From positions 1 through 6,865 of the forward strand of contig JACQWU010000150.1 of assembly GCA_016209155.1 (NCBI GenBank): a stretch of 6,865 bases of DNA, in the 5' to 3' direction. How positions within the stretch are numbered: the stretch's first letter is position 1; each line of letters starts with the position of its first letter. The notes beneath the pieces were generated by a model. It was not told where the DNA came from. It ran no database searches and saw only the letters and a list, made by a program, of their open reading frames with translations. Shown in pieces: positions 1,039 through 6,865 of the stretch. The stretch is from Candidatus Desantisiibacteriota bacterium. GTDB lineage: Bacteria > JACRDZ01. Made by a program: the position numbers and the translations under genes.

Positions 1039-1064
1039 CAGGGGACAGGTATTCCTGTCCCCTG
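1039..1064. repeat. Perfect 11-bp palindrome with 4-nt loop (REP-like or terminator hairpin)
   Basis: CAGGGGACAGG at 1039-1049 and its exact reverse complement CCTGTCCCCTG at 1054-1064 flank the loop TATT. The stem is GC-rich in otherwise AT-rich DNA. It sits 9 nt past the stop at 1074 of the minus-strand protease reading frame, where a terminator would be expected. The flank on that side reads TATTTAGC, only a weak U-tract, and the plus side has none. The sharp base-composition contrast and intergenic position also fit a dispersed REP-type element of the kind mobilised by Y1 (REP-associated) transposases. I cannot tell these apart without the rest of the genome. Confidence 0.7.
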
Positions 1065-1073
1065 ATAATATCA

Positions 1074-1550
1074 CTACGGCTTAGTTATATTAATAGTATT
1101 GCCTGTTAAAGCATTATTAGTTTCAATAATCTCTTTATTTGAATTATTGTAATCAGCTATTGCTCCGATATAATATGTTCTCGCAGATAAATTTGAAGGT
1201 ATCGCAGCATTTATTGTTACTGTGCTTTCTGCACCTGCGGCAAGACTTGCAATAGACTGAGTACCTATTCGTCTATCAGATGTTGTTATAATTGCATCTG
1301 TTGATAGATAAAGTCCAATATAAGAGGCTGACATTGTTCCAACACCTTGATTTTTAACTGTTGAACTTATGGAAATAGATGTTCCTGTAACACCGGATGA
1401 CGGGCCGCTTACAACTGTCATGATAGCATCAACTCCTGATATTAAATTAATAGTATTGCCCGTTAATGTATTATTAGTTTCATTAGTCTCTTTGTTTAAA
1501 TTACTATAATCAGCTATCGCCCCGATATAATATTGACCGGGAGAAAGACT
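1074..1550 (-). pseudogene. Out-of-frame 3' tail of the S8 protease gene (end of CARDB unit 3 plus CARDB unit 4)
   Basis: This frame is open for 158 codons from 1550 to a TAG at 1074. It begins with the second half of a CARDB unit (SLSPGQYYIGAIADYSN) and runs through a complete further unit starting VDAIMTVVSGPSSG and ending NTINITKP. It is offset from the protease frame by one base at about 1550, exactly where unit 3 is missing 136 nt. Restoring that length joins it to the protease as one protein of about 1,859 residues. An ATG at 1421-1419 could begin a 115-residue protein, but it has only a poorly spaced GGAG before it, no signal peptide, and starts partway into a domain sequence. I read it as a remnant, not an independent gene. 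Sequence conservation within the remnant is high, so the break is recent or an assembly fault. Confidence 0.75.
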
Positions 1551-2383
1551 GACATCGTTCCAATCCCTTGATTTTTAGCTGTTGAAGTTATTGAAACAGA
1601 TGTTCCTGTAACACCGGTTGCCGGACCGCTTATAAGAGTCATGATTGCATCAACACCTGATGTCAGGTCAATTGTGTTACCGGTTAAAGTATTATTATTT
1701 TCATTCGTTTCAACACGCGTAGTATTGTAATCAGCAATAGCACCTATATAATATCTGCCGGCTGTTAGCGTGGACGGGATAACTAATGATGATGTTAATG
1801 TACTGCTTGATGCACCATTCAAGCTTGAAATATATTGTATCCCTATGCGGGTATCTGATGTTGTTATAACTCCATCTGTTGATAAGTAAATTCCATTATA
1901 AAAACTGGAGATAGTTCCTGTTCCTTGATTTTGAACTGTTGAAGATATAGAAATTGATGTTCCTGTTAACCCGGTTAAAGGACTGCTTACAGAAGTCATT
2001 ACAAGATCCGCTCCTGCGACTTCAATTGGAATTGCTGTGCTCATTGTGTTATTTTGCTCATTCATTTCTGAAATAACTCCATCTTTATCAACAAATGCAC
2101 AGATGTAATAATTCCCTAAAGGTGTACTCGCAGGGATGGTTAAAGTTGTTGATGATGCACTTGTTACCCCTGCTCCCAGTGATGAAACAATACGCACAGC
2201 TGCCAATACTACATCGTCACTTCCGCCATAGATTGTATCCTGTGACAGATGAAAAGCAATTGTAAATGCTCCTGAGGCTGCGCCACCCTGATTTTTAGCT
2301 GTATTTGAAACACTTAATGTACTTCCGGGCGCAACTTTGGTTGAAGTCGTTGAAAGTACAGTCATTATAAGATCAGGTTTGGG
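1074..2383 (-). repeat. Tandem CARDB domain array (four units, the third internally deleted)
   Basis: Four successive CARDB units of about 115-125 residues share the pattern xDxxMT, SISISSTVKNQG, IYLSTD and YYIGAIADYN, ending ETNNTLTGNT. Unit 1 (about 2012-2383) is the most divergent. Units 2 (about 1655-2011), 3 (about 1440-1654) and 4 (1074-1439) are close to each other in DNA sequence. From the codon after GxGT (ATC 1912-1910 in unit 2, ATG 1334-1332 in unit 4) to the AGCTGAT-type block takes 180 nt in units 2 and 4, but only 44 nt in unit 3 (1555 to 1511), a loss of 136 nt. CARDB domains are Ig-like adhesion modules by family knowledge. Confidence 0.8.
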
Positions 2384-5300: not shown

Positions 5301-6517
5301 CTTCGCAATTCCTTATAATTTAGTAAAGGCCTATAACCCCAAATCAAAGCAGCTGCTCCGGCTACATGAGGTGCAGCCATTGATGTACCGCTCAAATCAT
5401 CATATTTATTTGATAATATGGTACTATAAATTCCATCACCCGGAGCTCCCAGGTCAACAGAAAGTAAACCATAGTTTGAAAAATCTGAAAGATTATCATT
5501 CCAATCAGTAGCTGAGACGGAAATAATATTCAATAAATCAAAACAGGCCGGATATAAAGGATACACTTCAGCATCCGCCATATTATTTCCCGCAGCTGCT
5601 ACAAAAAGAATACCATTGTCTTTTAACCTTTCTACCGCGCTGTAAAGTGATTGAGAAAATGCATAAGCTCCCCAGCTATTGCTCGTAATTTTAACATTAA
5701 CTCCTCTTTGCTTCATATCAATGACATAATCAATACATTCAATCGCGTCACCAGTACTACCTGTCCCATCTGCTCCTATAAATTTAAGCGCCATTATTTT
5801 TACATTCCAATTCACACCGGTTATCCCTATCCCATTATTGCCAACTGCTCCAATCGTCCCTGCCACATGCGTTCCATGTTTGTTATCATCCATAGGATTC
5901 CCTGTTCTTCTAATAGTGTTACATCCGTATACATCATCAATTATTCCGTTATTATCATCATCTAAACCGTTTGAAGGTATCTCTCCCGGATTTCTCCACA
6001 TATTTGCATTAAGATCCACATGATTATAATCAACTCCTGTATCTATTACAGCCACAACAATAGTTGAATCGCCAATAGTGGCATCCCAGGCTGAAGGTGC
6101 ATCAATAGCGTTCATACCCCATAGAAAATTAAAATTAGGATCGTTTGGCAGTCTTTGTATCTGAACTATATAATCCGGTTCTGCGAATTCGACCAGAGGT
6201 GATTTGTTTAATTTCGAAATTAATTCATCGATAGATTTTTTATTCTTAAGTTTTAGTCTATGTATACCTATTTTTTTATAAAATTTATCATTAACCAAAT
6301 TATTAGCCGACAACAAATTATCAGCTTCATATGATAATTTGTTACTTTTTTTTGCAAAATCTTTAAATTTGATCAAAATGCCATCTTGTGAATATTTTTC
6401 AATCTTTTTAGCGGATGAATCACGATATACAGCTTCGGAATGGGTAAAAAATAAAAAAAATAATAGTATAGTAGAAAAAAACAAATACATAATTTTGATA
6501 AAATTATTTTTAGACAT
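1514..6517 (-). CDS. Secreted subtilisin-like (S8) protease with PKD, IPT, LVIVD propeller, Ig-like and CARDB domains; C-terminus truncated by frameshift
   Basis: Predicted extracellular serine endopeptidase of 1,667 residues. Residues 1-29 are a signal peptide (KNNFIK, a long Leu/Phe core, then SEA). Residues 30-127 are a fervidolysin-type propeptide that would act as chaperone and inhibitor (GILIKFK to LVEFAEPDY). The catalytic domain spans about 132-433 with Asp159 (AVIDTG), His214 (HGTHVAG), oxyanion Asn311 (AAAGN) and Ser379 (GTSMAAPHVAG), so the active site is complete. A DDDNNGIIDD loop looks calcium-binding. Then follow PKD (444-527, SWNFGDG), the IPT N-half (528-562), 14 LVIVD repeats (563-1145), the IPT C-half (1146-1196), two Ig/cadherin-like domains (1198-1378), CARDB 1 (1379-1502), CARDB 2 (1503-1621) and a CARDB 3 stub. 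The last 11 residues are out-of-frame sequence before the stop. No sortase, SLH or type IX-like tail is visible. The start at 6517 is chosen because AGGAGG sits 7 nt before it; upstream ATGs at 6523 and 6556 do not fit. The non-catalytic modules probably mediate binding; the substrate is unknown. Confidence 0.92.
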   Translation of the reverse strand: MSKNNFIKIMYLFFSTILLFFLFFTHSEAVYRDSSAKKIEKYSQDGILIKFKDFAKKSNKLSYEADNLLSANNLVNDKFYKKIGIHRLKLKNKKSIDELISKLNKSPLVEFAEPDYIVQIQRLPNDPNFNFLWGMNAIDAPSAWDATIGDSTIVVAVIDTGVDYNHVDLNANMWRNPGEIPSNGLDDDNNGIIDDVYGCNTIRRTGNPMDDNKHGTHVAGTIGAVGNNGIGITGVNWNVKIMALKFIGADGTGSTGDAIECIDYVIDMKQRGVNVKITSNSWGAYAFSQSLYSAVERLKDNGILFVAAAGNNMADAEVYPLYPACFDLLNIISVSATDWNDNLSDFSNYGLLSVDLGAPGDGIYSTILSNKYDDLSGTSMAAPHVAGAAALIWGYRPLLNYKELRRVILAGTDPLTSLSGKVATGGRLNVNNGLTIPVPPNQLPIAKAECFIPEVMIKESVSFNGSLSSDIDGNIISYSWNFGDGKIGDGKNVTHEYNIYGIYTVTLTVTDDEGATAIDSVEVKIINYTVTPDSGKSNSLITITKTGDNFDSSYKIYIGNGGLRKINDLDTPGFTFGVYVSGNYAYVADGISGLQIIDISDPNNLNIVGSVDTPGIADKVCVSGNYAYIADGDSGLQIIDISNPVNPNITGNIDTPGYASGINISGNYAYIADGFGSGLQIIDISNPFNPNIVGSVVTPNNATSVYITGNYAYVADGYAGGLQIINIGDPFNPIIVGSVSSLDYAQEIYVSDNYAYLADGNSGLKIIDISNKSNPVIVKTQRIFNISGLYKFDNYLYAVGGYGLQVIDISDPLNAKTVDTVNNGYSTGVFVTSNYIYIAGSYGFEVIGLNNSFNPGIIGSINVSSYANNIYLSNNYAYITDNTGLQIINISDPVNPVKAGNINTQGYAYGVFVSDNYAYIAEGDIGLQIIDISNPSNPSITGSIDTPGYAYGVYVTGNYAYVADGYGGGLKIINISDPANPVIVSNVVTPHLAKGVYVSGNYAYVADGTSGLQIINISDPANPNIIGSLDTPGYAEGVYVSGNYAYVADSYEGGLQIIDISNPASPNIIGSSDTPGGATGVFVSGNYAYVTDGYEQGLQVINISDPFNPVVINCINNTITNGVYVSGNNLYVLTDSNLFIIDKISAGTSLTPVNIVNNNTISTVIPNGLIPGIYNINIVHLSMKNILYNAFTVMAGTINRPPVLTPIENKTVNEVQLLQFIVTGSDPDTDALIFAAEGLPGGAVFDTTIKTFTWTPDYTQAGDYNVTFTVSDGFLSDSQIITITVNNVNRAPELYPIENKTINEGVLLQFNVSADDPDGDVLTFTAVGLPRGAIFDTTTKIFTWAPDYTQSGNYNVAFTVSDGSLPVSETITITVQDVPKPDLIMTVLSTTSTKVAPGSTLSVSNTAKNQGGAASGAFTIAFHLSQDTIYGGSDDVVLAAVRIVSSLGAGVTSASSTTLTIPASTPLGNYYICAFVDKDGVISEMNEQNNTMSTAIPIEVAGADLVMTSVSSPLTGLTGTSISISSTVQNQGTGTISSFYNGIYLSTDGVITTSDTRIGIQYISSLNGASSSTLTSSLVIPSTLTAGRYYIGAIADYNTTRVETNENNNTLTGNTIDLTSGVDAIMTLISGPATGVTGTSVSITSTAKNQGIGTMSVFLPVNIISGR
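2384..2926 (-). repeat. Two tandem Ig/cadherin-like (He_PIG type) domains within the protease gene
   Basis: Two units of about 90 residues each carry RxPxLxPIENKTxNE, a DPDxDxLxF motif, GLPxGAxFDTTxKxFTWxPDYTQxGxYNVxFTVSDG and a closing ITITV. The two copies are nearly the same at the protein level, which points to duplication. The acidic DPD motif fits calcium-dependent cadherin-like folds. They act as a spacer or stalk between the propeller and the CARDB array. Confidence 0.75.
2930..3082 (-). other. C-terminal half of a split IPT/TIG domain
   Basis: Translates to SLTPVNIVNNNTISTVIPNG followed by GIYNINIVHLSMKNILYNAFTV. This is the characteristic second half of an IPT/TIG domain (thT-I-xxxVPxGLxPGxYxxxVxxxxxxxxxxxAFTV). 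No first half precedes it directly; the matching first half lies about 580 residues earlier, before the LVIVD repeats. Confidence 0.65.
3083..4831 (-). repeat. LVIVD beta-propeller array, 14 repeats
   Basis: Fourteen repeats of 40-43 residues (about 120-129 nt) follow the pattern AxGVYVSGNYAYVADG, then GLQIIDISDPxNP and NIVGSxDTPGY. The Asn of the NYAYVAD block falls at a regular 40-43 residue step throughout. Repeats 1-5 and 8-13 match well. Repeats 6 (FDNYLYAVGG) and 7 (SNYIYIAGS) are worn, and repeat 14 (GNNLYVLTD) lacks its last strand. The array opens with an orphan last strand (LRKINDLDTPGF), which would pair with repeat 14 and close a ring. Fourteen repeats would make two seven-bladed propellers, which is an inference. 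The usual role of such repeats is protein or polysaccharide binding at the cell surface. Confidence 0.85.
4832..4936 (-). other. N-terminal half of a split IPT/TIG domain
   Basis: Translates to YTVTPDSGKSNSLITITKTG, then DNFDSSYKIYIGNGG. This matches the first strands of an IPT/TIG domain (ITSISPxSGxxxTxITITGxNF..). The domain then breaks off into LVIVD repeats and resumes at 3082. Confidence 0.65.
4937..5194 (-). other. PKD domain coding segment of the protease
   Basis: An 80-85 residue segment with SVSFNGSLSSDIDGNIISYS, WNFGDG and YGIYTVTLTVTDDEGAT is a canonical PKD domain. Its conserved WxFGDG core is intact. It directly follows the catalytic domain and may position the enzyme on a polymer or protein surface. 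Confidence 0.85.
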
Positions 6518-6533: not shown

Positions 6534-6563
6534 TTAAACAATAATATATATATCATTGTTTAA
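6534..6563. repeat. AT-rich inverted repeat between the CARDB-ended gene and the protease gene
   Basis: TTAAACAAT at 6534-6542 pairs exactly with ATTGTTTAA at 6555-6563, around a TA-rich centre that can pair further after one mismatch. It overlaps the stop codon of the upstream gene and ends 3 nt before the protease Shine-Dalgarno site. As a terminator it is weak, because the stem is almost all A-T. It could tune readthrough or translation, but its function is unknown. Confidence 0.4.
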
Positions 6564-6865
6564 GGTCTGGTTACATTAATCATATTGCCGGTTAAGGTAT
6601 TATTCGTTTCGATAGTTTCCTTATTTGCATTATTGTAATCAGCTATTGCTCCGATATAATATGTTCTTGCAGATAAACCTGACGGAATTGCAGCATTTGT
6701 TGTTATAGTGCTTGATGTTCCTCTTGCAAGACTTGTAATTGATACTGTACTTATTCGTGTGTCTGATGTTGTTATAACAGCATCTGTTGATAGATAAAGC
6801 CCGGTATAAGATGCTGACATCAATCCGACACCTTGATTCTTGACTGTCGAAGTTATAGATATTGA
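6560..6865 (-). CDS. C-terminal CARDB domain of a larger secreted protein (5' part outside window)
   Basis: The frame is open from the right window edge to a TAA at 6560, giving 101 residues that begin SISITSTVKNQGVGLMSAS and continue through GLYLSTDAVITTSDTR and YYIGAIADYNNANK to the C-terminus VTRP. This is one nearly complete CARDB unit. The ATG at 6823 is internal to the domain, so the gene starts beyond the window. The closest match in this window is the last CARDB unit at 1074-1421, with a 39-nt identical block (6629-6667 and 1143-1181). It lies about 42 nt upstream of the protease start and in the same direction, so the two genes may be co-transcribed. The N-terminal domains are not visible, so what it does beyond carrying a CARDB end is unknown. 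Confidence 0.85.
   Translation of the reverse strand, partial: SISITSTVKNQGVGLMSASYTGLYLSTDAVITTSDTRISTVSITSLARGTSSTITTNAAIPSGLSARTYYIGAIADYNNANKETIETNNTLTGNMINVTRP

Follow-up and report, generated by a model that had tools for sequence, protein, structure and literature searches.

Secreted subtilases that carry a run of CARDB domains at the C-terminus are represented by Subt-(CARDB)9 of Geobacter sulfurreducens (NP_954260.1), which was listed under cell adhesion in a survey (PMC2605481). The protein described here, from a Candidatus Desantisiibacteriota bacterium, resembles it in being a predicted secreted S8 peptidase with CARDB domains at the C-terminal end. Unlike the Geobacter protein, it has intervening PKD, LVIVD and He_PIG domains and its CARDB array is cut by a frameshift.

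The stretch of DNA analysed (the window; 6,865 nt with zero Ns) is the whole of contig C54 of draft genome G000, an assembly of 352 contigs that is 79% complete. Its longest open reading frame (ORF) matches, in the Pfam search, a Fervidolysin-type prodomain, Peptidase_S8, PKD, LVIVD repeats, two He_PIG Ig-like domains and CARDB, the last comprising units 1 and 2 and the first third of unit 3. The Peptidase_S8 (PF00082) match is over the cut-off (E-value 2.4e-54) and extends over residues 164–423, corresponding to positions 2–271 of the 288 in the model. The Asp, His and Ser catalytic motifs can be read by eye in the translation as AVIDTGVD, HGTHVAGT and GTSMAAPH. Judging from the sequence, the window encodes a secreted multi-domain S8 protease, the C-terminal tail of which was formerly an array of four CARDB units. 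The features of the locus are as follows:

6560–6865, minus strand: 3' end of a second gene with the same kind of CARDB tail (Pfam), the body of which lies beyond the contig end
1514–6556, minus strand: truncated S8 protease ORF of 1,680 aa (1,667 aa from ATG 6517)
2039–2380, minus strand: CARDB unit 1, intact (profile and model match)
1661–2011, minus strand: CARDB unit 2, intact (profile and model match)
1549–1655, minus strand: 5' fragment of CARDB unit 3, approximately model positions 1–36, in the protease frame
1548–1549, minus strand: deletion junction (1549|1548) with 136 nt missing, from landmark spacing and alignments
1434–1548, minus strand: 3' fragment of CARDB unit 3, approximately model positions 81–118, now out of frame
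1514–1516, minus strand: premature stop codon TAG, 11 codons past the junction
1077–1433, minus strand: CARDB unit 4, complete and undamaged, out of frame (Pfam and predicted beta-sandwich)
1074–1076, minus strand: old stop codon TAG following ...NTINITKP, homologous to the C-termini of four other arrays
1039–1064, minus strand: perfect 11-bp hairpin, approximately 10 nt past the old stop

On the plus strand, the contig start truncates a gene (positions 1–705) for a phosphoglucose isomerase-like protein, of which the C-terminal part remains.

Units 1, 2 and 4 and the copy in the upstream gene all pass the CARDB (PF07705) cut-off of 22.7 bits, with scores of 61.1, 52.3, 53.0 and 43.9 bits, respectively. 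Unit 3 is an incomplete CARDB domain, matching positions 1–36 and 81–118 of the model built in this study in different frames, and its 3' fragment alone scores 22.2 bits, under the cut-off. The sequence places this break far beyond chance, since both fragments match the CARDB model in two frames. The distance between the landmarks AATCARGG and TATTAYAT is 183, 177, 41 and 177 nt in units 1–4 and 177 nt in the upstream copy; the difference of 136 nt is the same as that found in the initial annotation with other landmarks (180 and 44 nt). When its two fragments were aligned separately to ten intact units, unit 3 was found to lack 136 nt relative to nine of them and 139 nt relative to the tenth, which has one extra codon. 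Because a partial CARDB domain is present on each side of the junction, the direction of the change is clear, namely a loss in unit 3 and not an insertion in the other units. A fusion of two different units was also considered as the origin of unit 3 and set aside, one unit with an internal loss being simplest; the left part resembles unit 4 most and, after it, unit 3 of the own-genome paralogue described below, while the right part is equally close to both.

The missing 136 nt amount to 45 codons plus one base. The frame past the junction encodes 11 residues (VFLPVNIISGR) and terminates at TAG 1516–1514, whereas reading on in the old frame from 1511 leads through 145 open codons and the whole of unit 4 to 1074. 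The initial annotation had described both the stop 11 codons on and the open original frame correctly, and its shortening of the protein from about 1,859 to 1,667 residues follows arithmetically from ATG 6517. Unit 4 is indeed cut off, lying complete but out of frame after the premature stop. The loss from unit 3 was overstated as half of the unit; it is about 45 of 119 residues (38%).

The most useful reference for the tail lies in the same genome. Locus L021 (G000:C144, positions 6143–9802 of the locus) contains a gene for a CelD_N enzyme, which we take to be GH9-like; its open frame of 1,219 codons is uninterrupted and includes He_PIG and four CARDB units. The two He_PIG-CARDB1–4 tails are collinear and about 78–80% identical at the DNA level, with identity continuing on both sides of the 136-nt gap and only one other gap, of 3 nt, in unit 2. 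In contrast to the window protease, the CelD_N enzyme has an unrelated catalytic part, a complete unit 3 and an intact frame; its landmark spacing is 183, 180, 177 and 177 nt in units 1–4. BLAST alignment to this paralogue breaks at the same junction, and the 136-nt gap corresponds to G000:C144 14192–14327. L021 also contains, between two genes at 5854–6051 on the minus strand, an isolated CARDB fragment interrupted by an in-frame stop, which looks like the decayed remnant of an old tail from another subfamily.

For the N-terminal part, the comparison is with a protease of isolate STD1_102 (genome G003; L107 655–4182), which has the same order of prodomain, peptidase, PKD and LVIVD and is 47% identical in this part. 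It differs in that two PKD domains and a dockerin-like end (a weak match, below the Pfam cut-off) replace CARDB. Since a PKD/dockerin-like tail takes this place in the closest protease homologue, the CARDB tail looks, from these sequence comparisons, like an exchangeable module found on different enzymes in this lineage. In L107 (655–4767), the gene for the S8-PKD-LVIVD protease with the weak dockerin match at its end is followed by a cohesin-domain gene, and the two might form a cohesin–dockerin pair on a protease.

The second CARDB gene of the window lies directly upstream of the protease gene in the same direction, and its CARDB copy is the closest relative of unit 4 (80% identity at the amino acid level), for which reason a local duplication probably underlies the tails of both genes. 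In five arrays the final CARDB unit carries [DN]-[ILV]-T-[KR]-P directly ahead of the stop, while the inner units differ. Such ends are found at window positions 1074–1091, in L021 near 9802, where the tail ends with ...TIDLTKP, and in the CARDB ORFs of L022 and L023; they may reflect either common descent or a C-terminal signal. The hairpin past the old stop reads CAGGGGACAGG-AATA-CCTGTCCCCTG on the minus strand, has a z-score of −4.6 relative to shuffled sequences and is without a T-run. It possibly marks the transcript end of the full-length gene, although a scan for canonical terminators gave none at the old end of the gene. The hairpin is present in a single copy in the genome, which rules out a dispersed repeat, and an Rfam search of the window gave no match.

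The orphaned part of the gene still has the appearance of coding sequence. None of its 145 codons is a stop, though 55 of 1,305 possible single-base changes would create one. Between unit 4 and the upstream copy there are 13 differences at first, 12 at second and 34 at third codon positions, and the dN/dS of this pair, 0.19, is below that of intact pairs. Polarised single-step changes, in small numbers, are 8 synonymous to 4 non-synonymous on the unit 4 branch and 13 to 4 on that of the upstream copy. As far as these small numbers and the sequence allow, most of the unit 4 branch was passed under protein-level constraint. Because the coding signature is preserved in the lost part, the lesion is to be considered young, and the deletion, as dated from sequence, is recent relative to the divergence of the units, an age that is relative only. 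On this scale the third-position excess and the low dN/dS bear out the recent origin proposed in the initial annotation. In bacterial genes recently truncated or pseudogenised by out-of-frame deletion, the frame is lost and the downstream frame is clean; the deletion in the window displays no essential difference from such ordinary truncations.

We therefore favour, with a probability of roughly 0.74, an ordinary shortening of the gene by a 136-nt out-of-frame deletion in the protease tail. The alternative that carries some weight, though we consider it unlikely, is that the gene is intact in the cell and that the assembler or a gap-closing step misjoined two ends within unit 3. CARDB arrays do break contigs: in G003, one 127-nt CARDB-encoding stretch forms the ends of both C9 and C44, and the contig of the window itself ends inside a CARDB unit. 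Moreover, the junction is seen in one draft assembly, with the contig number and completeness given above. In a survey of 51 loci and related arrays, the only other frame-broken arrays were L055 (100 N) and L064 (9 N), where assembly gaps inside CARDB units break the frame; arrays at loci free of assembly gaps keep one frame. The N runs lie in the CARDB arrays of two public genomes, at L055 6589–6688 and in L064 between 5687 and 5776, and the ORFs called across them look frameshifted. The window, unlike both of these arrays, contains no N. In a short-read assembly graph, collapse of a repeat requires that the junction be spanned by an exact repeat as long as the k-mer. The longest exact repeats within the window are 39, 31 and 29 nt, yet the longest CARDB repeat (39 nt) is located elsewhere and no exact repeat of at least 14 nt touches the junction, which weakens repeat collapse, named in the initial annotation as the main alternative, and leaves it unsupported at 1549|1548. 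The sequences that meet at the junction come from domain regions that are not homologous to each other and could share a few bases at most. Furthermore, the other CARDB ORFs of the G000 assembly, up to 4,746 codons in length, are open through the match, the exception being a weak intergenic fragment on C144.

Two further readings were weighed. Among the lineage's secreted enzymes with CARDB tails, tail length might vary within the population through deletion and recombination between the several similar arrays of one genome, so that long and short protease forms coexist, the tail being strain-polymorphic or switchable and the change selected as at contingency loci. Related proteins do carry different tail modules, the closest homologue having PKD and a dockerin-like end where this protease has CARDB, and array length ranges from one to ten units across loci. 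If true, the coexisting forms would differ in surface attachment or release. We consider this very improbable: no second allele was found in the own genome or in the relatives compared, all of which are outside the same genus and family, the arrays of other gap-free loci stay in one frame, and a loss of 136 nt without flanking repeats is irreversible by slippage or inversion. No signs of phase variation were found at the lesion in the form of direct repeats of at least 14 nt, simple-sequence runs or, as read from the sequence, homopolymers longer than 3 at the junction. Among the same relatives no close strain with either the deletion or the intact state of this gene was found, and a full-length protein scan of genome contigs retrieved no relative. 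The exact junction sequence is absent from the viral contigs scanned, and a distant DNA search of plasmids produced just weak matches to short parts. Still more remote, to our mind, is continued expression of the downstream part, either by −1 ribosomal frameshifting at the junction or from an independent start at ATG 1421. The old frame is indeed uninterrupted, and AGGAG can be read approximately 10 nt before this ATG; however, the junction codons read GTC TTT CTC CCG, without a slippery heptamer of the type X-XXY-YYZ, the product from ATG 1421 would be devoid of a signal peptide, and recent descent accounts for the open frame. In sum, the polymorphic or switchable tail suggested in the initial annotation is not borne out by a second allele, a recoding signal or a reversible element.

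Returning to an ordinary deletion, its structural consequences can be estimated from the AlphaFold model of unit 4 (mean pLDDT of 91), in which strands are predicted at residues 3–9, 13–15, 19–28, 37–44, 54–61, 69–77, 85–92 and 108–117. The residues deleted from unit 3, approximately 36 to 81 in unit 4 numbering, correspond to three of the eight predicted strands (37–44, 54–61 and 69–77) and also hold the strongly conserved family motif YLSTDaxITTSDTRxGT. With three middle strands and the conserved motif lost, the unit 3 stub is not expected to fold.

On the favoured explanation, a single 136-nt deletion, which probably originated by illegitimate recombination at short or no homology, took out the three middle strands of unit 3 in a tail of four CARDB units. 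As 136 is not a multiple of three, translation proceeds out of frame and ends after 11 codons, and the remaining tail would consist of two whole CARDB units and a stub presumably unable to fold. Nothing is changed in the N-terminal export signal or in the prodomain, protease, PKD and LVIVD parts, so the cell probably still makes and exports the enzyme, now with a shorter tail. Such a change would be a simple loss, neither programmed nor reversible. Attachment of the shortened protease to the cell surface or substrate may be looser.

CARDB tails on subtilases are already known, and the lesion in the window is no new kind of switch. As the other broken arrays in the survey were assembly gaps, a broken CARDB array in a metagenome assembly should be verified in the reads before any biological conclusion is drawn from it. 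The importance of the finding lies mostly in annotation: the protease gene should be marked as frameshift-truncated, and its CARDB tail is to be treated as an exchangeable, not a fixed, module.
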